NCBI GenBank assembly: GCA_030681895.1
Contig: JAUXRI010000014.1
Span: 1 to 64,000 of the forward strand
Direction of reading: 5' to 3'
Source: Myxococcales bacterium
GTDB lineage: Bacteria; Myxococcota; Myxococcia; Myxococcales; Myxococcaceae
Length of the DNA stretch: 64,000 nt
This document shows positions 29,918 to 46,681 of this stretch, in pieces. Every line of letters starts with the position of its first letter. The stretch's first letter is position 1. The position numbers were made by a program, and so were the translations under genes. Below the pieces are notes generated by a model. It worked only from the letters and a program-made list of their open reading frames with translations, ran no database searches and was not told the origin of the DNA.

Positions 29918-30493
29918 GTGAGCTCGGCAGCGCGAACAGTGGCAACGGAGATGTCTCTCAAGGAGCACGCTGAGGCCCTGGTCGGGGCGGGACAGCTCCG
30001 GAAGGCGGCCGCGCTCATCAACGCCCACCTCGCGGAGCACGACGCTGGCTGGAAGCTGTGGAGCACGCTGGCCTCGTTGTCGCGGCGGTTGGGTCGGTAC
30101 GAGCTCGCGGTGTCGGCCTGGCGCGCGAGCGCGCGTCAGCTCGAGACGTCTGGACACGTGAAACACGCGCACGCCGCGCTGGCCGCGGCGCTGAGGCTCA
30201 CGCCGGCCGATCAGCCGTTGCGCGACGAGGTGTCGCGGCTCTCACGGCTCGTGAGCCGAGGCGCGCCCGGCCCGGCGTCGCGACCGACCCTGCGAATCGT
30301 TCGCTCACAGGCGCCGGCTCGTTCGTCGGAGTCACGCCCGACGCTGAAGATCCCGCCGTCGCCCAGCAAACCGTCGCGCCAGCCCTGCCCTGCCACGAGT
30401 ATTGCAGCGCTCCGCCGTCCCCTCGAGATCGTCACCGATCCACACCTGGCGATCTTCGACATCCTCGACGACGAGAAGCGACTCCAACGCTGA
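29918..30493 (+). CDS. Small helical TPR-like protein, 191 aa
   Basis: GTG 29918 or ATG 29951 could start it; the longer form is given. Residues ~10-105 look like two to three TPR-type helix pairs (LVGAGQLRKAAALINAHLAE, GWKLWSTLASLSRRLGRYELAVSAWRAS, HAHAALAAALRLTPAD). A low-complexity Pro/Ser/Arg stretch follows, then a short conserved-looking end (LAIFDILDDEKRL). No membrane segment. A scaffold role is plausible; the partner is unknown. Confidence 0.6.
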   Translation: MSSAARTVATEMSLKEHAEALVGAGQLRKAAALINAHLAEHDAGWKLWSTLASLSRRLGRYELAVSAWRASARQLETSGHVKHAHAALAAALRLTPADQPLRDEVSRLSRLVSRGAPGPASRPTLRIVRSQAPARSSESRPTLKIPPSPSKPSRQPCPATSIAALRRPLEIVTDPHLAIFDILDDEKRLQR

Positions 30494-30656
30494 GGTGAGC
30501 CTGCGGACGGGTCTGCCCTGCCCTCATGCACCGTCGAGGAAGCCCGCCGCGTGCATCGCTCCCTGACGGGCGTAAGCCACAAGCGCTCTCCGCGCAGGTC
30601 GTCGACGTTCCGGGCGGGCTGTTGAAGCACTCTGACTGACGTGCCAAGCCCGGCGC

Positions 30657-31856
30657 ATGTACGACGTCGCGATCATTGGTGCAGGCCCGGGTGGAGCTGC
30701 AGCCGCGGTGGCGCTCGGGCAGCGAGGCATCACCAACGTGGTGCTCCTCGATCGGGAAGGATTCCCGCGAGACAAGACCTGCGGGTCTGGGCTCTCTCCC
30801 AACGCGCTGAAGATGGTCGAGACCCTTGGCATCGGAGCCGAGGTGAAGTCGCTCGGTGTGCCCATCAACTCGGTGCGCATCGTCACGCAAGGAGGGCGAG
30901 AGATGATCGTCGCGTCGGATGCGGCGGCGATGGTGCTGCTGCGGCGCCACTTCGATCATCTGCTCGTGAAGCGCGCACAGGACCTGGGGATCACCCTCAA
31001 GACGCCCTTTCGTGCCGTCGAGCTGATCAAGGAGGCTGACCGGGTCGTCGGCGTCACAGGTTTCGACGGCGAGACCGTACGCGCCCGGTACGTGCTCTGC
31101 GCCGACGGAGCGCATTCGATCTTCTCGCCTGATCCCCGGCCGAAGCGCAGCATCTCGACGCTGATGGGCTGGTGGGATGACGTCGACGTCGAGCCCGGCC
31201 GCCTCGACATGGTCTTCGACAAGAACCTCTCGCCGCTCTACGGCTGGCTGTTCCCCGAAGGCCAGGGCCGGGTGAACATCGGCATCTGCATCGACGGGCA
31301 GGACGCGTCGGGCGAAAAGTCGAAGCGCAACCTGCGAGCGACGTTTCGCCAGTTCCTCGATGATCACTACGCGAAGGCGTTGGCTGGGGCGACGCAGGTC
31401 GGGGCCTTCAAAGGCCACCCCATCGTCTACACGACGTGGGTTGGTGAGATCTCGGTGCCCGGCGCGCTCTACCTGGGAGAGGCCGCGCGGCTGACCCACA
31501 ACGCAACCGGCGAAGGCATCTCACAGGCGATGGAGTCAGGCACCTTCGCTGCAGAGGCCGTGGCGCGCGTGCTGCGCGGCTCGCATGACGAAGCCGCCGC
31601 GTGGAGCTGGTACCTCATGCAGCACCGCAAGCGCTTCACCGGCGCCTTCGTCGCGGGTCACGCCCTGAGAGCGGCCGTCGCGTCGCCGGTGTTGGACCGC
31701 ATGGCCGACGCGTACAACAACCCCATGGTGCGCAAGCTCGTGGTGAAGCTGCTCGGCTCGGCGCTCGCTGGCAGCTCCGTCTCCGACACGAGCCCCGGCT
31801 CGGACTCTGCCGAACCCCCGACGTCTCAGCCCAGCTCACGCAGCTCGAGGCGGTAG
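30657..31856 (+). CDS. Geranylgeranyl-reductase-family flavoprotein, 399 aa
   Basis: FAD-binding Rossmann motif GAGPGGAAAAVALGQRG near residue 9, the GGR-type DKTCGSGLSPNAL, CADGAHS in the middle, and LGEAARLTHNATGEGISQAMESG. The last is the family's second FAD motif, normally beginning GD but GE here. The family reduces isolated C=C bonds in prenyl chains. Its neighbour at 31826-33178 is a squalene epoxidase of the same flavoprotein fold, and the two genes overlap by 31 bases at their 3' ends. A role on an isoprenoid of the sterol locus is an inference from position only. The Ser/Pro-rich tail is unusual. Confidence 0.85.
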   Translation: MYDVAIIGAGPGGAAAAVALGQRGITNVVLLDREGFPRDKTCGSGLSPNALKMVETLGIGAEVKSLGVPINSVRIVTQGGREMIVASDAAAMVLLRRHFDHLLVKRAQDLGITLKTPFRAVELIKEADRVVGVTGFDGETVRARYVLCADGAHSIFSPDPRPKRSISTLMGWWDDVDVEPGRLDMVFDKNLSPLYGWLFPEGQGRVNIGICIDGQDASGEKSKRNLRATFRQFLDDHYAKALAGATQVGAFKGHPIVYTTWVGEISVPGALYLGEAARLTHNATGEGISQAMESGTFAAEAVARVLRGSHDEAAAWSWYLMQHRKRFTGAFVAGHALRAAVASPVLDRMADAYNNPMVRKLVVKLLGSALAGSSVSDTSPGSDSAEPPTSQPSSRSSRR

Positions 31857-33178
31857 CGATCGATGAAGCTGCGCGCGGAGCGGGTGACCGCTTCGCTCAG
31901 ACGGCTCACGCTGGTTCGGCCCAGCGCCTTGAGGCGACTGACGCCCGCGCGAGGCCGTCGCGGGAATTCCTTCACGACGGCAAGGGCCGACACACCGAAG
32001 ACCCTGGAGTACTCGACCATGAAGCGCGAGCTGCGCACTTCTTCGCCCGACAGAATGTCCATCGACGCGCGCCGAGCCCCGGCCGAGCGCCGCCAATAGG
32101 CGAAGACGCCGGTCTGCAGGGCCCGCGACCCTTCATCGTGCGCTCGAAAGACCTCGTAGAGCGAATCGGTGAACAGCTCGCGCATGCGGACGAAGTCGTA
32201 GCGGTAGCGCTGGTACTCGGCCAGCACCTCTTCGGTGGCGCCGCTGGTACCCACCAACTCCGCCAGCAGCGTCACATCGTTCATCGCGTTGCTCATGCCC
32301 GACGCGGTGAGCGGGTGCGCGCAGCCGCCGGCATCGCCGATCAGCACGACCCCGGGAGCGGCGCACTGCTGGGTGGTGATGGCGTGGTTGGCGCAGCCCT
32401 CGAACGGCGCCTCGGCGAGAGACCGAATCATCGACTCGCGGAGCTGCGCGGGCACCACCGGGGCGTACTTCTCGATCAGGAGCGCCACGATGGCGTCGCG
32501 GCCCTTCGCAGCCCCGAGCGGCACGTCGACACAGAACCGGATCATTCCGTCGCCGAACGGGTACGCGAGAATGGGCCCGGGCGCTCCGAGGAAGACGTGG
32601 CCGCTTCGCGCATGCGGCAGCTCACCGCGGACGGCGAAGGTGATCGAATACGACAGCAGCCTGGTCTCCGCTGCGAAGCCCAACAGCCCGCGCAGCTTCG
32701 ACTGCCGCCCGTCGGCGACCACGACCAGATCGGCGCGGTGCTCGACGCCATCGGCGGTCGTCACGCCCACCACGCGGCGGCCCGCTCGCAACACGTTCTC
32801 GACGCGAACGCCCTCCACCAACTCGATCTCTGGGTGCTGGCCCACCTCGGTTCGAAGCGCCTTCACCATGCGCTTGTGATCGATCCCGAGACCGAGCCCT
32901 TGCCGGTGCGCGTAGGGCAACACGATGGGCTGGTGGCCGGAGCCTGGAGACACTGCGAAGCCGTCGACCTCCACGCCTCCACACGCCAGGAGCGGTGCCT
33001 TGAGCCCGAGCGCGAGCAGCCCTCGCACGCCGCTGGGATGAATCAGCTCGCCCCGAAAAGCTCCGGCCGGCCCGACCGCGGCCTCGAGGACTCGCACCTG
33101 AGCGCCGCGCTGAGCCAGCGCCGCTGCGGCGATCAACCCCGCGAATCCACCACCAACCACCACCACGTCACGCGACAT
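31826..33178 (-). CDS. Squalene epoxidase (squalene monooxygenase)
   Basis: 450 residues from ATG 33178. Introduces the 2,3-epoxide into squalene using FAD and O2. FAD motif GGGFAGLIAAAALAQRG starts near residue 9. Further segments line up with eukaryotic squalene epoxidases: GELIHPSGVRGLLALGL, VVADGRQSKLRGLL, APGPILAYPFGDGMIRFCVDVP, VVLIGDAGGCAHPLTASGMSNAMNDV and the C-terminal SLYEVFRAHDEGSRALQTGVF. It lacks the eukaryotic N-terminal membrane anchor. Divergent from the squalene synthase gene, with a 118-base shared promoter region. Alternative readings such as a generic FAD monooxygenase are less likely given the neighbours. Confidence 0.88.
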   Translation of the reverse strand: MSRDVVVVGGGFAGLIAAAALAQRGAQVRVLEAAVGPAGAFRGELIHPSGVRGLLALGLKAPLLACGGVEVDGFAVSPGSGHQPIVLPYAHRQGLGLGIDHKRMVKALRTEVGQHPEIELVEGVRVENVLRAGRRVVGVTTADGVEHRADLVVVADGRQSKLRGLLGFAAETRLLSYSITFAVRGELPHARSGHVFLGAPGPILAYPFGDGMIRFCVDVPLGAAKGRDAIVALLIEKYAPVVPAQLRESMIRSLAEAPFEGCANHAITTQQCAAPGVVLIGDAGGCAHPLTASGMSNAMNDVTLLAELVGTSGATEEVLAEYQRYRYDFVRMRELFTDSLYEVFRAHDEGSRALQTGVFAYWRRSAGARRASMDILSGEEVRSSRFMVEYSRVFGVSALAVVKEFPRRPRAGVSRLKALGRTSVSRLSEAVTRSARSFIDRYRLELRELG

Positions 33179-33296
33179 AGGTGCCACTTGCCGCACACCC
33201 GTCGCGAGGCGCAAGACATGTGCACCTACGTTCGTCAGACGCTGACACATGCCCGCATGGAACGCGAAGAAGACCTCGGCTAGCGGGAGGCTCCCC
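33179..33296. promoter_or_regulatory. Divergent control region between squalene epoxidase and squalene synthase genes
   Basis: The 118 bases must hold both promoters. Two inverted repeats are visible. One is the palindrome GTCAG-ACG-CTGAC at 33234-33246. The other is a wider pair, TAGGTGC 33178-33184 (its first base is the epoxidase start codon) with GCACCTA 33222-33228. Either could be an operator. A strong ribosome-binding site (GCGGGAGG) lies at 33283-33290 before GTG 33297. No clear -10/-35 pair is seen. Confidence 0.4.
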
Positions 33297-34244
33297 GTGG
33301 ATCTCGACGACCTGCTCCAGAAGACCAGCCGCACCTTCGCCGTGGCGATTCCGCTCTTGCCGGAGCCGACGCGCAACGCAGTCGCGCTCGCCTACCTCTT
33401 GTTTCGTGTCGCCGACACCTTCGAAGACGCGACGCTGTGGACGAGAGATGAACGAATCACCGCGCTGCATCAGTTCGCGCGCCTGTTCGAGCTCGACCGC
33501 GAGGCGCGAGCGCTCGAAGCAACGCAGCTGGTTTCGCGCTGCACGTCGCGGCCGCCAATCGATCACCAGGGCTATCTCGAGCTGCTGAGCCAGCTCTCGC
33601 CGCTGCTCGATCGGTTCGACGCGCTCGAGCCGTCCGCGCGGGCCATCGTGGCGCACCACGTGACGCGCACCAGCGACGGAATGGGCGCGGTGGTGCGGCG
33701 CGCCGACGAGCGCGGAAACCTGTCGTTGACCTCGCTGCACGATCTGAAGAGTTACTGCTACCTGGTCGCGGGCATCGTGGGAGAGCTGTTGACCGAGCTC
33801 TTCCTGAACGACTGCCCCGCGCTCGGGAGCAGCGCCGATGCGTTGCGAGCCTCGGCGGTGGCGTTTGGCGAAGGGCTGCAGCTGGTCAACATCCTCAAGG
33901 ACTCCGGCGCCGATGCCAGCGACGGCCGGGTGTACCTGCCACCGCAGGTGTCCCGCGCCGAGGTGTTGTCACTGGCCTGGGCCGATCTCGAGCAGGCCAA
34001 CCGCTACGTCCAGACCCTCCAACATGGAGGAGCGCCGCGCGGCTTCGTGGCCTTCACGGGCCTGGCGCTGGTGTTGGCCTTTGCGTCGCTCGACGTCCTG
34101 CGCGTCCGCGGAGCCGGGGCGAAGGTCTCGCGAGACGACGTCGGCCGGCTCTTCGCAGCCCTTCACCAGAGCCTCGACGAGGACCAGCCCTTCGACGCGC
34201 TGGCGCTGATCAGCTCGACGGCGCTTCGTGCTCGAGCGTCATGA
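33297..34244 (+). CDS. Squalene synthase
   Basis: 315 residues. The GTG at 33297 is preferred over an earlier start at 33249 because GCGGGAGG is seven bases upstream and the family fold begins at once (LLQKTSRTFAVAI). The first Asp motif is DTFED (Asp40-Asp44); the second is the family's DxxxD near the C-terminal half (Asp202-Asp206, KDSGAD). SYCYLVAGIVGELL and GLQLVNILKD match eukaryote-type squalene synthases better than phytoene synthases. Makes squalene from two farnesyl diphosphates with NADPH. Its last 35 bases overlap the convergent cyclase gene. Confidence 0.87.
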   Translation: MDLDDLLQKTSRTFAVAIPLLPEPTRNAVALAYLLFRVADTFEDATLWTRDERITALHQFARLFELDREARALEATQLVSRCTSRPPIDHQGYLELLSQLSPLLDRFDALEPSARAIVAHHVTRTSDGMGAVVRRADERGNLSLTSLHDLKSYCYLVAGIVGELLTELFLNDCPALGSSADALRASAVAFGEGLQLVNILKDSGADASDGRVYLPPQVSRAEVLSLAWADLEQANRYVQTLQHGGAPRGFVAFTGLALVLAFASLDVLRVRGAGAKVSRDDVGRLFAALHQSLDEDQPFDALALISSTALRARAS

Positions 34245-36207
34245 ACTCGGACAGCGCCCACATCGGAAAGTAGTGGCGGTAGCAGTCGTAGGTGATGAGG
34301 CAGGTCTTGTTGAAGACGCCGACCATGGGTTCGCGAGGCCAGCTCCCGTCGCTCGCCTGTCGTTGGCAGAGCCACTGCGCGGCGCGGGCCATCGCCGATC
34401 GATCCTCACAACGGGCGCGCACGAGCGTCGACAGGGCCCACGCCGTCTGGGCCGCGTGGCCGTGCTCGCCGTCGATCCATCGGCGGAGCCGGCAGCTGTC
34501 GCCGTGCTCACTGAAGCTGCCGTCGGAGCGCTGCTGCTCGAGGAGAAACGCCGTCGCCCGTCGAATTGCCCGGTCGTTCGCAGACGCTCCCGCCGCCAGG
34601 AGCCCCGTCACGGCGAACCAGGTGCCGTAGGTGAAGCACACGGCCCAGCTGCCCTCGAAGCTCCCGTCTTCTCGTTGCGCGTCGCGGAGAAACTGGACAC
34701 CGCGGGTGATGGGCGCCTCGAGCTCGAACTCTCCAGGAAAGCGACGACGTGCGTGAACGAGCGCTTGCAGACAGGCGCTGGTGCACTCGACGTAGCTGGT
34801 GTCGACCATGATGTCGCCGAACACCTGAGACGGGTTGAGTGACTCGAGCCACCGGCCGCCGCGCTGGCGCTCGTAGGTGCCCCAGCCTCCGTCGTCGTTC
34901 TGCCACGACAACAGCAGCTCGACCGACGCACGCAACAGCTCGGGAGGAACCTCGCTGTCGTATCGCCCCTCGAGGGCGAGCGCGCACTTGAGCCCTTCGG
35001 CAGTGCAGTCGGTGATGGGCCAACCGTGCATTCGATTGCTGAAGGGCCACCCGCCCCGGCTGCGATGACGGTAGTGGCGCTCGGCCTCGGGCACGTCTTC
35101 GAGGATCTGGTTGTCGCGCAAGAAGACGTGCGCCTTCGCGAGCACCGAGTCATTCCGCTGCGGGCTCACGAGTCCTGCGTGCTCGGCCGCCAGCAGCGCC
35201 TGAATCGCGAACGCCGAGTCCCACAGCTCGGCGTTGTTGTAGCCCTGCATCTTGAGGCCGTCGTGGCCGTCCCACAGATACGCCTCGTCGAACTTCGGCC
35301 AGCCGCGATCGAAGTCGGCGCGCCCGTCGGCTCCGCGGAACCAGTGCACGAACATGTTGAGCACGGCGTTGACGGGGCCGATGTCGAGATCGTTCGTCGC
35401 TGCGTCTTCGTGGCGAATCAGCGTGAGGCACTCGTCGAGGGCCGGGCGACGCAGGAGTCGGGGGAACCGCTCCAGCGCGCTCTGCATGCGATTGACGGTG
35501 CGCAGGGGCGCGGATGACGGGCGGTAGTCATCGCTCGGCGCGACGGTCTCGCGGTGTGCCTCCCAGTCAATCTCGGCGTACGTCCCTCGATAGAGCTCGT
35601 TGCGAATGGCGGTGAGCGTGGCGTCGTCGGGAGCGATCGACTTCGTGCCGTACAGCCACGCCATCGGCAGGTAGACCATGCGCGCGTGGCACCAGAGGCG
35701 GCTGGGATGAAACGGAGACGCGCGCGGCAACAGCCACAGCTCCGGCAACAACGGCACCAGGCCGCGCCAGTCGTAGAGCCCCAACAAGCACAGGGTGAAC
35801 TTGCCCCAGGAAGCGGCGCCGAGCGGTGAGCCGTTGGCGTGAATCCAGGCGAGCAGGCGACTGGTGCGCGCGTCGTCAGGCGGCAGGCCCAGCAGGCGCA
35901 GCGCGACGTAGCCCAGCACCGAGGTGAACATGCTGCCCGAGGTGGCCTCGGCGTGGAGCCCGATGCTGCCGTCGGAGCGCTGCACGGCGGTGAAGTGGGC
36001 GATGAGGCGAGCCGTGCGTGCCGCGTCGGGCATACGGCGCGCGACCCACGCGAGCGCCACCCACATCGGCAACAGGAACATCGGCCCGCCGTAGTCGCTG
36101 GGCCAGCTCCCACGCTCGGCCTGCAGGGCTTTCAGGTTGTCGAACGCCTTCGACACCACCTCGGCGATGGGCGGTGCTTCTTCTCGAGAAGAGTTCGGGG
36201 CGTCCAC
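34210..36207 (-). CDS. Oxidosqualene cyclase, cycloartenol-synthase type
   Basis: 665 residues. Cyclises 2,3-oxidosqualene to the first tetracyclic sterol. The catalytic acid is Asp400 in the ITDCTAEG motif; squalene-hopene cyclases carry DXDD instead. Other signatures: SDYGGPMFLLP, GPVNAVLNMFVHWF, YVECTSACLQAL, GSWAVCFTYGTWFAVTGLL and GVFNKTCLITY. Three residues that separate cycloartenol from lanosterol synthases are all of the cycloartenol kind: Tyr323 (MQGYN; Tyr410 in Arabidopsis), His394 (His477) and Ile398 (Ile481). It is somewhat shorter than plant enzymes (~760 residues), mostly at the N-terminus. Confidence 0.92.
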   Translation of the reverse strand: MDAPNSSREEAPPIAEVVSKAFDNLKALQAERGSWPSDYGGPMFLLPMWVALAWVARRMPDAARTARLIAHFTAVQRSDGSIGLHAEATSGSMFTSVLGYVALRLLGLPPDDARTSRLLAWIHANGSPLGAASWGKFTLCLLGLYDWRGLVPLLPELWLLPRASPFHPSRLWCHARMVYLPMAWLYGTKSIAPDDATLTAIRNELYRGTYAEIDWEAHRETVAPSDDYRPSSAPLRTVNRMQSALERFPRLLRRPALDECLTLIRHEDAATNDLDIGPVNAVLNMFVHWFRGADGRADFDRGWPKFDEAYLWDGHDGLKMQGYNNAELWDSAFAIQALLAAEHAGLVSPQRNDSVLAKAHVFLRDNQILEDVPEAERHYRHRSRGGWPFSNRMHGWPITDCTAEGLKCALALEGRYDSEVPPELLRASVELLLSWQNDDGGWGTYERQRGGRWLESLNPSQVFGDIMVDTSYVECTSACLQALVHARRRFPGEFELEAPITRGVQFLRDAQREDGSFEGSWAVCFTYGTWFAVTGLLAAGASANDRAIRRATAFLLEQQRSDGSFSEHGDSCRLRRWIDGEHGHAAQTAWALSTLVRARCEDRSAMARAAQWLCQRQASDGSWPREPMVGVFNKTCLITYDCYRHYFPMWALSEFMTLEHEAPSS

Positions 36208-36268
36208 CGTGGCGCGCGTCGTACACCGCCGTGACGACCGTGAGAACTGAAGGTGCGTGATGTGACGA

Positions 36269-36300
36269 AGCGCCGGCCTCCGAGAAGGAAGACCGGCGCT
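36269..36300 (-). terminator. Hairpin after sucD (weak terminator candidate)
   Basis: Eight-base-pair stem AGCGCCGG / CCGGCGCT with a 16-base partly paired loop, 28 bases beyond the sucD stop and before the cyclase start. There is no T-tract on the minus strand, so termination here would be inefficient. Confidence 0.35.
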
Positions 36301-38478: not shown

Positions 38479-40773
38479 GTGTCCTTCGTGATCACGTCGT
38501 TGGTGTGCGCTCAGCTCGTCTTCCCCACCACACCGACTGCGATCGAGTTCGGCGACGACCAGCTCCAACAGTACCCGGCGAGCGTGGGAGCGATCGCGTG
38601 GAAGGCCGATGGGGGCCTGGCGGCGATCTGGCTCGACGGCCGGCGCAGCCTGGGTGAGGCGGCCGTGGGGAACCGTGTCGATCTCTGGGGCTCGAAGCTG
38701 ATCGTCGACAACCCGGCACCGGTCGACCGCACCGGGTTGCTGTTGGCCACCCCTCCTGTGTTGGCATCGATCGAGTCTCCGGCGATCGCGTTCAACTCGA
38801 ACGTCGTCGCGATCGTGTGGATCGAGCGCCGGGCGGCGACTGCCACCGTTCAGTTGGCGATTGGCGACGAGAATGATCGCTCGATCCTCGCCGCGCCACG
38901 CGTCCTGGCGAGGTCGGGGGACCTGACGGGCGTCACGGTCGGCCCGGCGGGGAGCGGGTTCATGGTCGCGTGGACGGAGGGAACCCGGATCTGGTGGGCG
39001 CGGCTCGCCACGACGGGGCAACAAGAGAATTCCGGGAGTACCTTTGCGGCTGGCGTCCAGACGGTGGCGACGCCGCTCGTCGGAGGCGTCGTCGATGGCG
39101 GGGCAGCCTTCGCCTACAGCTCGGCGCCAACACCGCGGGCAGGCTTCTTCACTCACGATTACGTCTCGCCGACATCAGACGCGGGCAGCCTGTTCGATGT
39201 CTCGGGCGCCCTCGCCGGCATCAGCTTTCACAGTGGCACGCCGTCACTGATGCTGCGGATCAGTGGGGGCGTGCTTCAGAGCCGCCCGTCTTTGTTGTCG
39301 TTCACGACGGTGACCTCGACCCGGGCGCTCTCCGAGTGTGTCGTCGCTGGGAGCGAGGCCCTCACCGCGCTCGCCTACGTCGACCTCGTGAATGCCACCT
39401 CACAGGTCGGGTTCATCACGCCGGCCGGAACCGTGAATGTGATCGACGCGCCGCCGGCCGAGGCTGTGGCGGTGGCAACCAACTCGACTCATGGAGCCTA
39501 CCTGCGCCGGGCCAATGGGCTGTCGGTGCTGACGCGCATGCCGGCAAGCCCGACGCTCGAGCCGCCGACGGAGCTCAACTTCGCCCAGCCAACCCAGCGA
39601 GTGCCGAGCGTGGCGTGGCTTCCGGACGCGGGAGGCTTCGTGGTTGCACACGAAGAGCGCGGCACGACGACGATGGGCTCCGTGCAGACGTGGACGGGGC
39701 GGCTCGCGCTGGTGCGGCTCGACGGAGGGACCGATGATCTGGGCGCCACCGGCACTCCGCAGGTGTTCCCGGTTTTTCCGAGAGTCGTGGAGTGGGACGA
39801 GAACTCGGTCGGCGTCGAAGAGCAGGACCTCGCGAACCACACGCACCGCCTGTTGAGCACGATCACCGGAGTTCCGCCGCCGACGACCATCGGCGCGCGC
39901 GGCTGGCACTCAGCGGCCGGTCCACCGTTGCTCCGCTGGCGGGAAAGTGCACCGGGCGAGACGACGATCGACCAGGCGGTCGGCACGAGCATCGTGGCCA
40001 TCACGGAGCCGCGGTGTGTGACGACGGTGAATGGCAGACATCTGGTCGGTGGTTGGATTGGCTCGACGCTGCGGCTGTACGATGTGTTGGGGTTGGCCGG
40101 AAACTCCACCGCCATCGACGTGCCAGCGAACGTCGTCATGAAGGGCTCGGTGTGCGTCACGCGGGGGCGGGACGCATCGGAAGCGCTGGCGACGTGGAGC
40201 CAGGGCGACTTGATTCGAGTGCTGAGCATCGGCAGAGCCGATGCGGTTCGGGTGGTGATTCCAGGGCCGCCGGGAACCAGGACATTCGAGAACCCGGTCG
40301 CGACACGTCTCGGGTCGGGGGTGCTCGTGGTGTGGGAAACGCCGCCCGCGTACTCGACGATCGGAGCCGCCTTCATCGACGACTCGAGCCCGACGGTACA
40401 GGTGCCGGTGGTGCTGCACACGGGCGCTGACCTGGTCCGACACCCGACGGTGACCTCGGCGCCAGGCGGCCCTGCCCTCGTCGCGTGGCAGGAGTTCGAT
40501 GCAGCGCCCGGAGTCGGCGCGACACGCGTTCGAGCGCGCCTCGTATTTCCGCGGCTCGCGCCCGACGCAGCCGTCGATGCCGGGTCACCGGACGCTGGGC
40601 TTGTTGACGGCGGGAGTCTGGACGGCGGCGGTCAAGTCGACGCCGGCGACGCGATTCCGGTGCCGACGACGCTGACGTTCACTCCGTCATGCGGGTGTTC
40701 GGGTGGGCCCGGGGCACTCGCGCTCGTGCTGCTCGCGCTGTGGGCGCGAAGAGGTTCGCCGCGCACACGCTGA
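38479..40773 (+). CDS. MYXO-CTERM surface protein with repeated beta-type modules, 764 aa
   Basis: GTG 38479 gives a short signal-like N-terminus ([11 protein letters not shown]). The body contains repeating [18 protein letters not shown]- and [18 protein letters not shown]-type strands, as in beta-propeller-like secreted proteins with W-x-D/E-x-R motifs. The end is an Asp-Ala-Gly/Asp-Gly linker followed by SCGC, a hydrophobic segment and an Arg-rich stretch, a MYXO-CTERM signal. The protein at 42565-45333 has the same kind of plan, so the two may be paralogues. No enzymatic motif seen. Confidence 0.8.
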
Positions 40774-40835
40774 GGCGGTTCTGTTTGGCAAGCGCCTCTG
40801 CCAGAGTCCGCGCTCCTTCTGTGGGGGGTTCAGAC

Positions 40836-42254
40836 ATGTCAGGACGAGTCACGCGCGACGCGCCGATTACCCGTGCAAAGAAGACCGCTGCGACAGAAGT
40901 ACCGAAGCAACAGCCGGCAGTGATCGCAGCGCCGACGAAGGCTCCCGAGGACACCGTGGGGCCAGCGCGAAGGAAGGCGCCGGCCAACCTCACTGGTGGG
41001 CGCCACAAGGCCGTGAAGATCTCGATTCCGGGTCGGCCTGACATTGCGCCGCTCAAGGCATCCGATCTCTTGAAGTCGCTCGCGACAGGAGCGCTCGCGC
41101 AGAGCAGCCCGGCGACGGGAATCCTGGCGCCCGCCCCGTCGAGCGTGAAGGCCGAGACGCGCAACGAATTCACGCTCAAGTTCTCTCCAGCGATCACAGA
41201 TCAGAACTCGGCCCGTCGTGCTGTGTTTGGCTCAGACACCGTTCCTCCCGGGCTCTCGCTGGAGCGACGCGACGGCGGGTGGATGCTCCGTGTCGAGGCC
41301 GATCCTGCGAAGCAGGCGCCGAACAACCTGCGTTGGGATGCGTACCAGGCTGGCGTTCGGCCCGAACTGCAGGCGTATCTCTCGAAGAACCTGCCGGCGA
41401 ACCTGAACGTGCCGTCGCCGGGAAAGTCGGCTCCAGTGCTGGCCGAGTACGACGCTGATCAGCGGGCCAAGCAGGTGAAGGTGACGGGCTGGAGCAGCGG
41501 CATGGTGATCGCCGAGACGCTCAAGGGCCCGAAGATGATCGACACCACCTCGTTCGACGTCGACTTCGGGAAGAAGATGACCAAAGAGCAGGCGGCGCAG
41601 TTCTTCTGGGATCAGAAGAAGGTGCCGATGAACTCGACGCTCGAGGCGATGCCCAAAGGCAAAGAGCCCGCGTCACAGTGGCGCGTCACCCAGCCCGAGC
41701 AGTGGACGACCGACTCGCGCGCGAAGGGCATTCACCCCACCCTCGGGCTTCACCTGCTGAAGCAGACCAACGCCGCGAACCAGAAGATCCCCGAGTGGAT
41801 TGGGAGCAAGACACGCGCGGCGCTGGAGTCGAAGTCGCTCCCGCCGAAGGGCGTCGACGTGAAGCACCCGAAACCGGGTATCGCGGTGTGGCGCGAGGGC
41901 AACGGAGTGTTCTGGTACGACGAGAAGAAGAAGACCTTCGAGGCGTTCCCGAGGAAACCGGGCACGGGGCCTGGCACCGGCATGTGGAACAACTGGAACA
42001 CCAGCTACATCATGGAGAAGGGCATTTCCCCGCGTGAGGCCGGGCCGATGGTGGTCGCCGACATGCACGACACGAATCGGCAGATGTTGATGGCGTTCGC
42101 ACAGGCGTTGGCCGGGTCGAAGTCTCCCGAGCAGGGCGTGATCGCCGTCGCGGAGCAGGCGATGGACGTCGCTGGGAAGTTCGTCGATCACCCGATGCTG
42201 AAGGGGAAGGACGATCTCATCGAGGCAGCGCGTGAGGATGCGGCGAAGCGCTGA
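40836..42254 (+). CDS. Hypothetical protein, 472 aa
   Basis: ATG 40836 follows a GGGGGG-type ribosome-binding site. The first ~110 residues are low-complexity Lys/Pro/Ala. The rest is a globular domain with regular Trp/Tyr/Gly content (for example LERRDGGWMLRVEADP, WDAYQAGVRPELQAYL, GNGVFWYDEKKKTFEAFPRKPG and a helical end). No signal peptide or membrane segment. I do not recognise the family. Its N-terminal Pro/Ser/Lys-rich style recalls the unknown protein at 1452-2759, but no residue-level similarity was found by eye. Confidence 0.7.
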   Translation: MSGRVTRDAPITRAKKTAATEVPKQQPAVIAAPTKAPEDTVGPARRKAPANLTGGRHKAVKISIPGRPDIAPLKASDLLKSLATGALAQSSPATGILAPAPSSVKAETRNEFTLKFSPAITDQNSARRAVFGSDTVPPGLSLERRDGGWMLRVEADPAKQAPNNLRWDAYQAGVRPELQAYLSKNLPANLNVPSPGKSAPVLAEYDADQRAKQVKVTGWSSGMVIAETLKGPKMIDTTSFDVDFGKKMTKEQAAQFFWDQKKVPMNSTLEAMPKGKEPASQWRVTQPEQWTTDSRAKGIHPTLGLHLLKQTNAANQKIPEWIGSKTRAALESKSLPPKGVDVKHPKPGIAVWREGNGVFWYDEKKKTFEAFPRKPGTGPGTGMWNNWNTSYIMEKGISPREAGPMVVADMHDTNRQMLMAFAQALAGSKSPEQGVIAVAEQAMDVAGKFVDHPMLKGKDDLIEAAREDAAKR

Positions 42255-42564
42255 GGCTGACCCGCCCCGACGCCTGGAGCCGTGACTTGCGCGAGCTGAG
42301 AGAGAGCTGCGCTGTTGCGGGCATGCGAGTGAAGGAGCGGGTCAGGGCGCGGAACTCGAGGCCGAGCTGCGAGTCATCTCTGCCGCCCGGCTCGCGAGCG
42401 TTTGATCCCGAGGTGCCGCCGGGGACCCGGCACTGGAGGCAAGAGCAGTCACGCCTGCCGAGATGGGCCCGTCTTGGACCATCGGAACGAGTTCGAGGTG
42501 AGAGACATTCAGCCACACCGATGAACCGCGCCGCGTCAGCAACTTGAGACTCGACGACTCGCCG
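42255..42564. other. 310-base gap without a convincing gene
   Basis: Open frames exist on both strands, but none has a ribosome-binding site or recognisable domain. On the minus strand, 42542-42342, a short frame begins with LTRRGSSVWLN, which weakly recalls the FlbD family; it could be a decayed remnant. Otherwise nothing was seen. Confidence 0.5.
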
Positions 42565-45333
42565 TCACCGCTGTCGTTGCGCTCGCTGGCGCCGCCACGA
42601 AACGATGAGGAAGGCGACGAGAAGTTGGCCGAACGAGAATGCTCCCGGCGATGCGTTACAGCCGCAGGCGCGCGGGGTTGGGCCGAGCCCAGCAGGTTCG
42701 GGAATCGCCGGCGTCAGTCTCCCTCCGTCGAACTCGGGACCGCCGTCGAAGCCGGGACCGCCGTCGAAGCCGGGACCGCCGTCGAACTCGCGACCGCCGT
42801 CGAAGCCGGGACCGCCGTCGAACTCGCGACCGCCGTCGAACTCGCGACCGCCGTCCAGCCCGAGGCCGCCGTCGAGTTCAAGGCCACCTCCGTCGGCCCC
42901 AGCGTCCTGCCGGGCTCCTGCGTCGCGAGACAATTGTTGGCAGGCACCCATGCGACAGCTCCCGCCATCCTCACACGCAACTCCATCAACAGAAGCGGAC
43001 CATGAGCAGACGGCGCGAAACGGATCGCAGGACCCCACCAGACATCGCGTAGCGGGAACGCAGTCCTGAGCCGATGAGCAACCGGTCTCGCGAAGGTATT
43101 GGCCGAAGATCTCGCTCACTCGATCGTCCGGCCGCGCTCGCGCACCGACAAGAAGGACCGAGCCCTGGGCGACCTTCTCGGCACGGAGATTCGACCGACC
43201 CCCGTCCTGGTCATGAACGACGGGAGACAGATCAATCGGAATTCCGTCTGGCGTGGTGCGCGCCGAGAACAGCCCGCCGGCTTCGGTCCAGAAAAGGACG
43301 AAATTCGAGCCGTCGAAAACGAGTGCGGGGTTTCGCTGGGCAACGGACGCAGGCGCGGAGCGAAACGCGCCCGTCAGCGGGGCCCAGCCGCCGTCCGTTC
43401 CAGTCATGGTTCCAGCGATTCGGGTTACCCCAGCTTCGTCCTCTTCCCAGGCAACTGCGACTCCATGACCCGACGACGCCAGGGTTGGGAAACGCTGCGC
43501 GCGAGTGGACGGGCTCAGGACAATCCCTCCATCGTCCAGACGCCCCCCATCGAAGGCCATCCGTGCAGTGCGAATTCTCGGGGCAGCAGGTGGGCCATAC
43601 CACACAGCAGTAATTGACTCGTCAGTCGCGACGGCTCTGACCCCGTCAGAACTGAAGTAGTCCGGGCCGAAATCGTGTCGGGCTACGATCTGGCCTCGCT
43701 GGGTGAGGAAGGTCGCTTCAAGACCTGCGACGCGGCGCCAAATAAGAACATACGCACCACTGACCGAGACGAGGTCGCCCTGTGCTCCATCACCCAGATG
43801 AACTGTTGGACCCACGGTTCCGCCGTCGGAGTCGATTGGCCTGACGTAGATGTCCGAGAGAATCGAGTTCGAAAGTGGGCTTTCCCACGAGACGAGGAAA
43901 TCGCTGCCATTCGACGACGCTCTTGGGGACCTTGCTGGACGGAACACGTCGAACGGACTTCCGCTTCCTGGCACCAGATCGTTGACAAGCATTGCCCGCA
44001 CGGTTCCCTGTATGTCGTAGCGCGAGTCGTCGCGATCGTCGGACCACAGCACGAGCGTCTTCCCTGCCCCGTTCGCGATCGCCGGCTCGCCCTGTGAGTT
44101 GAACCGGAGCTGGATGGGGAACCCGGGGCGCGGCGACAGGGGTTGGGTGGTGGTAATCGGAACGGCGAATAGGACGCCTCCCCTGTACGCGCCGTTCTGC
44201 AGGATGAGCCGAGGTGTGAGCAGGAGGCTTCGCCCGGGGATGGCTGCGAGATCAAATGGGTCGCCTGCCGGCGGCAACTGAGTCTCGACCCTCGCTATCT
44301 GACCGAGTGGGCCGGTGGAGGACATCAGGACTGCGTCGATTGTGACGCTGTTACTGTGCCCCTGAGCTGCAATGACTATCGCGTTTGTGCCGTCAAACGA
44401 CGCACGCACATCGACCCCAGAGAGGCCAAGAGGCATCGGAGCCGCCCCGAGAACGCCCCCGTCTGTATCAACTCGTCGTGCAAGCACGCCCATCGACCCG
44501 CCCGAGAAGGATACGACGAAGTTGGTACCATCGGTCGTGAGCGCCGGAGGCTGCATCAGACTGTGCGTCGGACTGCTGATCAGAAGCGGTGGCTCATCGA
44601 CCGCGTTGCCCGTCGACAGAACTCTCGAGGCGCGAACGGGCGACGGTGACGACGACCACATCAGCCCCTCGTTCCACGCGACGAGGAAGCGAGTCCCGAG
44701 ACTCACGACCTGAGGTTGGTGACCGGCGTCGGTCACCATCCATGGCGTGACATCCGCAGCACCACCATCGGGCCACAGTCGCGTCGCGAACACCTCGCCC
44801 AGGTCCGTTCCCCATGTCACAAGGTACAATTCGCCATTGAACGCCACGCTGACTCCCTGTCCGACGCTGGCGCCAAGACCCAGCACCAGTGGTGTTGCGT
44901 CCTGGACATGACCAGACCCGGAAACACGAACGGCACTCACAACTCTGTCTTGCATCACCACCAACCAGTTGGCTCCGTCCCAAGCGACGTCGGAATCGCG
45001 GCCCACTCCGGTGGACATCGGAGGGCCAACACTGATGCCTACTGGCTCAAAGACCCCTCCATCGAACGAGACGCGCGTCACGGTGAAACGACTCTCTCGA
45101 TCCTGCGCAATCAGGAAGGTCCCGTTTGGTCCGGCGCTGGCGGAGCTATGGCCGAAGCCGTCGAGAAGATCTGGCTGGACCTGGGTAGGTTCGACCGGAA
45201 ATGGAGGGGACAGAATTGGTGCGTTGCTGAGACCGCTCTGAAGCCCCGCCGTGGGCTCCACCGGGCTTGCGTTTCGACACGTCGCCAACAGAGCAATGCC
45301 GATGCTCAAAGTGAGAATGGGCGGGCGGCGCAT
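42565..45333 (-). CDS. MYXO-CTERM surface protein, 922 aa
   Basis: Signal peptide at the start (ILTLSIGIALLATC, lipobox-like with Cys19). The body (about residues 40-700) has regular W/F-x-x-x-W and D-G-x-N/W repeats (DVAWDGANWLVVMQD, TLVLWSDDRDDSRYDI, GVAVAWEEDEAGVTRIAG). A Cys-rich cluster lies at ~730-785. A tandem Asp-Gly-Gly linker follows. The tail is CGC, a hydrophobic segment and an Arg cluster (WRRQRAQRQR). A lipobox-like N-terminus together with a MYXO-CTERM tail is unusual. The gene is slightly less GC-rich than its neighbours. Confidence 0.8.
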   Translation of the reverse strand: MRRPPILTLSIGIALLATCRNASPVEPTAGLQSGLSNAPILSPPFPVEPTQVQPDLLDGFGHSSASAGPNGTFLIAQDRESRFTVTRVSFDGGVFEPVGISVGPPMSTGVGRDSDVAWDGANWLVVMQDRVVSAVRVSGSGHVQDATPLVLGLGASVGQGVSVAFNGELYLVTWGTDLGEVFATRLWPDGGAADVTPWMVTDAGHQPQVVSLGTRFLVAWNEGLMWSSSPSPVRASRVLSTGNAVDEPPLLISSPTHSLMQPPALTTDGTNFVVSFSGGSMGVLARRVDTDGGVLGAAPMPLGLSGVDVRASFDGTNAIVIAAQGHSNSVTIDAVLMSSTGPLGQIARVETQLPPAGDPFDLAAIPGRSLLLTPRLILQNGAYRGGVLFAVPITTTQPLSPRPGFPIQLRFNSQGEPAIANGAGKTLVLWSDDRDDSRYDIQGTVRAMLVNDLVPGSGSPFDVFRPARSPRASSNGSDFLVSWESPLSNSILSDIYVRPIDSDGGTVGPTVHLGDGAQGDLVSVSGAYVLIWRRVAGLEATFLTQRGQIVARHDFGPDYFSSDGVRAVATDESITAVWYGPPAAPRIRTARMAFDGGRLDDGGIVLSPSTRAQRFPTLASSGHGVAVAWEEDEAGVTRIAGTMTGTDGGWAPLTGAFRSAPASVAQRNPALVFDGSNFVLFWTEAGGLFSARTTPDGIPIDLSPVVHDQDGGRSNLRAEKVAQGSVLLVGARARPDDRVSEIFGQYLRETGCSSAQDCVPATRCLVGSCDPFRAVCSWSASVDGVACEDGGSCRMGACQQLSRDAGARQDAGADGGGLELDGGLGLDGGREFDGGREFDGGPGFDGGREFDGGPGFDGGPGFDGGPEFDGGRLTPAIPEPAGLGPTPRACGCNASPGAFSFGQLLVAFLIVSWRRQRAQRQR
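42727..42888 (-). repeat. Tandem 18-base repeat (nine units)
   Basis: Units of the type GTCGAANNCGNGACCGCC (plus-strand view), 42727-42888, alternating two main forms, GTCGAAGCCGGGACCGCC and GTCGAACTCGCGACCGCC. They encode six-residue blocks (DGG with FDGG-like spacers) in the linker of the 922-residue protein. High identity between units shows a recent expansion, so the copy number probably varies between strains. Confidence 0.85.
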
Positions 45334-45460
45334 TTGACGACCATAGGCTCAGCGGCGTCGCGTTGTCTGGGGCACACGCCGGCGGAACTCCTGCGATGCG
45401 GAGCGGATCCTTCCTCGTGAGACTTCCGCAATCCTCGCGAACGGACGTGTAGCGAGTCAG

Positions 45461-46681
45461 TCAGGCAAGTCGGAATGAGCGCGAGACGACGGCGCTGATC
45501 AACTGACTCGCTCCGGCGACGGCGAAGACGGCGCTGTACGCCACCGGGCGATCGAACCCTGACGACAACGCGATCGCGGCAACCGCTCCCGCCACGAGGT
45601 TGCCGACGAACATGCCGAACGTGCCCGCCGCGTTCATCAACCCCATCGCAGACGCGCGCGCCTCGGCCGGCACCGCCTGGCTCACCAACGACAAGCTCGG
45701 CCCGTAGATCGCCGCCGACGCGACGCCGCCGACTGCCAGTACGAGCGGAATCCACTTCACGTCGAGCACCAGCAACGAGAAGAACATCAACCCGTACACC
45801 AGCGCTCCCAACGAGATCAGCGTGTAGCGATTGAACCGATCACCAATTCTCGTCAGCGGCACCGTCGCGATCGCGAACGTCACGAGGAACACCGTGAACC
45901 ACCGGCTCACCGTGCCATCGGGCACCTGAAGCACGTGAAAGGCAAACAGCTGCAGCGTCACGGTGAACGCTCCGACCGAGAAGCGCTCGAGGCCCACCAC
46001 CACCACCGGCAGCCGAACCCCCGGAGCCTTCCACACCGCCCTGCCCGACAGCTGCGACGACGCGCCATCAGGCAACACGCCGAACGCCGCCAGGCCCGCG
46101 AATACGCCGATCGCGCCGCCCACCAACAACGGGAGCGAGGGATCACCCTTCCCCAGGATCGCGCCGAGCGGAATTCCCACCACCAGCGCCAACACCACCG
46201 CGCTCCCGACCAGCCCCGTCGCCGCCGAGCCCGTCACCCGCCCACGCGCCGCGCCCATCAGAATCGACACCGCTCCGACGCTCGCCGCGCCCTGCACGAA
46301 GCGCAGCCCCAACATCACGCCGAGCGACGGCTTCAACGCCACCAGCGCGACCATCAGCCCATCGAGCAACGCCAGGCTCCCGGCGACGACTCGCCGTTTC
46401 CCGATCCGATCCGCCCAGACCGCCAACGCCGGCCCCACCAGACACGCGCCGAGCAGGTTCACCGCCATGAAGGCGTGAAACACCCACTCCTGCCCCGGCC
46501 AGCCTGACGCGACGAACGGCCGAATGACGGGGATCACCACCGTCGCCGGCATCATCGCGGCCATCACCGTCAACGCGATCGGCGCGGCGAACCGCACCTC
46601 GCGACGCAGCGACACGGGCGCGGGGCACTCCAACGGCTTGCCGTCGGCGCCAAGCTCGCTGGTCCTCACCTCAACGCCCAT
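45461..46681 (-). CDS. MFS transporter, 406 aa
   Basis: About 11-12 hydrophobic segments. The MFS loop-2 motif region is ALAVWADRIGKRRVVAGS (G-x-x-x-D-R-x-G-R/K-R-x-like), and a second copy-like segment is PLTRIGDRFNRYTLISLG. The GLMNAAGTFGMFVGNL segment is typical of drug or organic-acid carriers. Substrate not predictable. The gene is divergent from sdhC with 188 bases between. Confidence 0.8.
   Translation of the reverse strand: MGVEVRTSELGADGKPLECPAPVSLRREVRFAAPIALTVMAAMMPATVVIPVIRPFVASGWPGQEWVFHAFMAVNLLGACLVGPALAVWADRIGKRRVVAGSLALLDGLMVALVALKPSLGVMLGLRFVQGAASVGAVSILMGAARGRVTGSAATGLVGSAVVLALVVGIPLGAILGKGDPSLPLLVGGAIGVFAGLAAFGVLPDGASSQLSGRAVWKAPGVRLPVVVVGLERFSVGAFTVTLQLFAFHVLQVPDGTVSRWFTVFLVTFAIATVPLTRIGDRFNRYTLISLGALVYGLMFFSLLVLDVKWIPLVLAVGGVASAAIYGPSLSLVSQAVPAEARASAMGLMNAAGTFGMFVGNLVAGAVAAIALSSGFDRPVAYSAVFAVAGASQLISAVVSRSFRLA

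Follow-up and report, generated by a model that had tools for sequence, protein, structure and literature searches.

We propose that four adjacent genes in the window (the whole 64,000-nucleotide stretch of DNA, from an uncultured member of the Myxococcaceae, analysed here) form a compact sterol cassette, the products of which would carry farnesyl diphosphate through squalene and oxidosqualene to cycloartenol and then, probably, to cycloartanol; taken as a complete chain, we consider this likely, though well short of assured. The proposal draws on the gene families present, the residue triad of the cyclase, the trees of cyclase and reductase, gene neighbourhood, co-occurrence across genomes, and the presence or absence of the block among close relatives. 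A prior sequence-only reading had placed squalene synthase, squalene epoxidase and oxidosqualene cyclase together at 31826-36207, taking them for a sterol cluster with a cycloartenol-type cyclase. That the three genes lie there is confirmed, by Pfam for epoxidase and synthase and by NCBIfam models and alignment to the human enzyme for the cyclase, and the interpretation as such a cluster is supported; the left limit, however, has to be moved, as the cluster reaches 30657 and takes in a fourth gene (Table 1). Sterol synthesis and cycloartenol-type cyclases were already known from the Myxococcaceae (PMC4919349, PMC12004948); what is new here is the fourth gene, which had been missed, a likely end product for the pathway, and a cassette that is present whole or not at all when close relatives are compared.

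Table 1. Features of the sterol gene block, in window coordinates
Feature	Position	Strand	Size and start	Basis or remark
Geranylgeranyl-reductase-family FAD protein, predicted Bsr	30657..31856	+	399 aa	TIGR02032, motifs, tree, co-occurrence
Squalene epoxidase	31826..33178	-	450 aa, ATG at 33178	Pfam PF08491 SE, structure match, motifs
Intergenic region between divergent epoxidase and synthase start codons (ATG/ATG)	33179..33248	.	70 bp	Presumed promoters
Squalene synthase	33249..34244	+	331 aa	PF00494, TIGR01559 (best NCBIfam match), motifs, neighbourhood
Oxidosqualene cyclase, cycloartenol-synthase type	34210..36207	-	665 aa, GTG start	Profiles, alignment, tree
Catalytic Asp400 codon, in DCTAE	35008..35010	-		Aligned to human catalytic D455
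Ile398 codon	35014..35016	-		Human V453, Arabidopsis I481
His394 codon	35026..35028	-		Human C449, Arabidopsis H477
Tyr323 codon	35239..35241	-		Human T381, Arabidopsis Y410
Terminator-like inverted repeat after sucD, right-hand edge of block	36269..36300	-		Read by eye; no T run

The four genes alternate in strand and are therefore best described as a gene cluster, not an operon. Reductase and epoxidase converge, their 3' ends overlapping by 31 bp, as do synthase and cyclase (35 bp), with epoxidase and synthase diverging from the short region between them. For the epoxidase we set the most likely start at the ATG, and not at the TTG at 33376 that opens the longest reading frame, because the ATG stands just before the FAD motif. 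To the right, the inverted repeat suggests that sucCD transcription does not extend into the cyclase; an operon with these genes is ruled out, since the cyclase, although on the same strand, lies beyond the hairpin, and sucCD is kept in sister genomes that lack the cyclase. The TonB-receptor, ChaN and TPR genes to the left were likewise rejected as cluster members: the left flank that carries them matches in a same-genus genome (G004) without the cassette, and they are absent from the clusters of relatives.

The first step, condensation of two molecules of farnesyl diphosphate to squalene, would fall to the putative squalene synthase, an assignment that rests on domain, motifs and neighbourhood: the protein matches SQS_PSY (PF00494) at 115.2 bits, bears two Asp-rich motifs (DTFED and DSGAD), and is encoded beside the cyclase in the same position as in relatives, with the squalene synthase model TIGR01559 as its best NCBIfam match (83.8 bits, under the cut-off of 286.75). 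Conversion of squalene to 2,3-oxidosqualene, using O2 and FAD, would then be the task of the epoxidase, which scores 112.4 bits against the Pfam SE domain (cut-off 20.1), has the motifs GGGFAG, DGR and GDAGGCAHPLTASGM in common with its relatives, and finds its closest solved structure in squalene monooxygenase (6c6n).

In the third step, Asp400 of the cyclase would protonate the epoxide, with folding leading to the protosteryl cation, and deprotonation at C-19, favoured by Tyr323, His394 and Ile398, would yield cycloartenol. The protein passes the general model for squalene/oxidosqualene cyclases (TIGR01787, 549.9 bits, cut-off 322.7) and scores 719.9 bits (E 2e-216) with the oxidosqualene cyclase model TIGR03463, which is under the strict cut-off of 851. 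Of the 56 genomes of the phylum that have a cyclase, only 29 pass that cut-off, and it is missed by all of the human enzyme-like Group 2 rows close to the window cyclase; we therefore take it to be narrower than the family. A hopene cyclase identity is ruled out by motif, scores and tree: the hopene cyclase model TIGR01507 gives only 198.8 bits, and direct comparison gives 549 bits with human lanosterol synthase against 119 with hopene cyclase. Squalene-hopene cyclases belong to the same superfamily, but have DXDD in place of DCTAE, are less than 30% identical, and fall outside in the tree. Eukaryotic contamination is ruled out too, by bacterial relatives at 76% identity and a G+C content equal to that of the window (0.68 against 0.67).

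Both residue claims of the sequence-only reading are borne out: alignment to the human enzyme pairs Asp400, in DCTAE and not DXDD, with the catalytic Asp, and recovers exactly the three residues of the cycloartenol-type triad (Table 1). The Y/H/I combination at Arabidopsis positions 410, 477 and 481 supports assignment of the cyclase to the cycloartenol-synthase type. In lipid data from tested bacteria, cycloartenol is associated with Ile as the third triad residue and lanosterol with Val (PMC4919349); this speaks against the cyclase making lanosterol, parkeol or a mixture despite its triad, as does the conservation of Y/H/I in all 13 rows of its clade. We regard such a different product as quite improbable. 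In its favour, the three residues are not known to fix the cyclase product in every lineage, and the clade of the window cyclase itself is not known to include a tested enzyme.

A genome scan gave 80 relatives. The cyclase tree has 69 rows and, like the reductase tree, comes from a quick search with SH-aLRT support only. The earlier reading had named such a tree as its test, with a place among hopene cyclases counting against it; the window cyclase lies inside the oxidosqualene cyclases, and the DXDD enzymes lie outside them. Within a sterol-cyclase clade of uncultured Myxococcaceae, it nests with its two closest relatives, L035 (76% identical) and L036 (72%), which are both uncultured Archangium/Myxococcaceae MAGs. 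Cyclases with A/H/V, among them that of Methylococcus capsulatus and that of a genome read as Sandaracinus amylolyticus, make up a deep and separate branch. The cycloartenol-type cyclases of Stigmatella, Cystobacter and Corallococcus (Wei et al. 2016, PMC4919349) share family, triad and a Myxococcaceae host with the window cyclase, but their clade, which holds Corallococcus and the best TIGR03463 scorers, is distinct from that of the uncultured genera, and its rows are about 48-55% identical to the window protein. Gene order separates them as well: cyclase, synthase and epoxidase keep their order and orientations in L035, L036, L038, L040, L300 and L301, and synthase and cyclase converge in the window clade, whereas at L047, L049, L052 and L059 both run in one direction. 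The window cyclase thus stands for a distinct branch of the cycloartenol-type enzymes, one that comes from uncultured Myxococcaceae, is apparently not yet characterised, and now has a concrete predicted product. Sterol synthesis had been called rare in bacteria, which holds for oxidosqualene cyclases in bacteria at large but not among these relatives, where they are common (56 of the 195 genomes in the phylum; 113 of 318 in a second myxobacterial class). Two cyclases stand out by their triads: that of L014 (G017, Myxococcaceae) has Y/Q/V, lanosterol-like at the third position, yet sits among Y/H/I cyclases, and that of L221 (G165) has the unusual combination Y/N/T.

The FAD protein at the left end of the block is probably a Bsr-type sterol C-24 reductase, and would reduce the C-24 side-chain double bond of cycloartenol to give 24,25-dihydrocycloartenol (cycloartanol). 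In S. amylolyticus, sterols are reduced at C-24 by Bsr, a protein of the geranylgeranyl reductase (GGR) family; it is encoded in a sterol gene cluster, its features include YxWxFP and a Cys, its tested substrates are zymosterol and desmosterol, not cycloartenol, and homologues occur in Minicystis rosea and Cystobacter (Lee and Welander 2025, PMC12004948). The window protein passes the GGR model TIGR02032 (168.2 bits, cut-off 158.8) and carries YGWLFP at 195 and Cys42 (in KTCGSG), features which are also found in other GGRs and so are not specific. It falls in a 50-row clade (SH-aLRT 97) together with proteins of two genomes that we take to be S. amylolyticus and M. rosea, the first supported by its gene cluster, in which reductase, epoxidase, cyclase and synthase lie together; Archangium-type reductases of cyclase-less genomes fall outside this clade. 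The window reductase thus shares with the tested Bsr its family, the YxWxFP motif, the active-site Cys, a sterol-cluster location and a clade. It is, however, only 43-45% identical to that enzyme (58-59% to the M. rosea protein) and is paired with a cycloartenol-type cyclase, whereas the S. amylolyticus enzyme is paired with one of the A/H/V lanosterol type.

Counting reductases of at least 180 bits, the cyclase is also present in 16 of the 17 reductase-bearing genomes of the phylum (Fisher p 3.9e-9) and in 49 of 51 in the second myxobacterial class (p 1.6e-23), kinship being ignored in both tests. The converse does not hold, since 39 of 55 cyclase-bearing genomes of the phylum, and 64 of 113 of the second class, are without a reductase at this threshold; the reductase is therefore optional. 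The order of reductase, epoxidase and synthase recurs in L217, and the reductase adjoins cluster genes in L210, L211, L221, L222 and L223.

Comparison within the genus ties the four genes together more directly. In G004 the interval 30480..36257 (5778 bp), in which reductase, epoxidase, synthase and cyclase are the sole cluster genes, is replaced by 1451 bp, the flanks matching at 92% on the left (up to 30479) and 95% on the right (from 36258). The genes, absent together at this site, therefore behave as one unit, and the reductase is tied to the sterol genes; neither sterol cyclase nor reductase was found in any of the six other genomes of the genus. As both flanks match within the window, the cluster is chromosomal in the genus and a contaminant contig is unlikely. 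That close neighbours differ by a whole pathway speaks against a simple vertical history of the sterol genes in this genus. A plasmid search gave a best match of 37%. The place of the cassette in G004 is taken by an unrelated 416-aa protein (L294:6180-7427, reverse strand) in which we read TPR-like repeats and a IIDTGASSVVLS stretch resembling retropepsin. A second difference between the two genomes lies to the right of sucCD, where window positions 38637-45479 give no DNA alignment with G004 between two sides that align at about 95%; the stretch measures 6.8 kb in the window and 2.9 kb in G004.

It is against this background that the last step has to be weighed, as the pathway might end at cycloartenol, with the reductase silent or serving a different isoprenoid, for instance a quinone tail. 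Only cycloartenol was seen in Cystobacter fuscus (PMC4919349), despite the Bsr homologue reported from Cystobacter species (PMC12004948), and this counts against the C-24 reduction; Bsr is also reported to be close to the menaquinone reductases of mycobacteria (PMC12004948), and the menaquinone reductase model MenJ gives the window reductase 99.8 bits. This score is, however, far below the MenJ cut-off of 700. A pathway that stops at cycloartenol would also sit poorly with the grouping of the reductase beside the M. rosea protein and with its distribution: it hardly occurs outside genomes that have a cyclase, and within the genus it shares the presence or absence of the sterol genes. We hold an end at cycloartenol to be unlikely, though deserving of serious attention, and continue to favour reduction to cycloartanol.

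The conversion proposed here, of cycloartenol to cycloartanol, is made in plants by the sterol side-chain reductase SSR2 at the entry to cholesterol synthesis. SSR2 belongs to the DHCR24 family, which is unrelated to the GGR family of our candidate, such that any likeness between the two would be convergent. We speculate that the cassette is a compact and exchangeable unit leading to cycloartanol, that it offers bacteria a route, through a GGR-family enzyme, to the step with which plants begin cholesterol synthesis, and that it is common to other uncultured Myxococcaceae with both genes; this wider proposition we would give an even chance. Judging from titles and abstracts, the matches listed in a literature search for cycloartanol in bacteria concern plants, propolis and other topics. 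Should the reductase indeed act on cycloartenol, there would be bacteria that produce a saturated C30 cyclopropyl sterol, with a bearing on the reading of fossil steranes as signs of eukaryotes.

The earlier remark that no later demethylase is visible stands: the window has no CYP51-like P450, and none turned up in the assembly within the tests made, although at 87.85% completeness the absence from the assembly is a soft one. The ring methyls are therefore expected to stay. The CYP51 signature is G-x-H-T-S/T; all five full-length P450s of the assembly have AGHETT instead, their best NCBIfam matches are not CYP51 models, and the P450 search thus does not place the genome among those with a cholesterol-type pathway of CYP51 and later enzymes. 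We think it highly improbable that the sterol is processed further, whether by a reductase of the ERG4/ERG24 family encoded elsewhere in the genome or by unrecognised enzymes. The idea gains something from a PF01222 protein at G000:C187:35727-36782 (145.6 bits), from the incompleteness of the assembly (only 88% complete), and from the known demethylation of sterols in bacteria that have no recognised homologues of the eukaryotic enzymes (PMC4919349). Against it, none of the five P450s has the CYP51 signature, and the ERG4/ERG24 protein also occurs in five of the six same-genus genomes without the cyclase, so that it does not track the pathway; its candidacy as a pathway enzyme is not supported.

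By our own reading, this ERG4/ERG24-family homologue lies near a rimM-like gene (G000:C187, L231:1501-2874, reverse strand). On another contig (G000:C21, L225/L230), about 3 kb contain a P450, a protein that we read as fatty-acid-desaturase-like, and a second P450 match, which is partial; together these may form a small oxidative lipid cluster. Finally, in a 1010-aa open frame at G000:C230 (L240:8427-11456, reverse strand), residues 21-625 form a DXDD squalene-hopene-cyclase-like domain and residues 738-947 an MPAB/rubber-oxygenase domain (PF09995). Same-genus genomes without the sterol cyclase encode cyclases of this DXDD type in frames of 1013-1036 codons.
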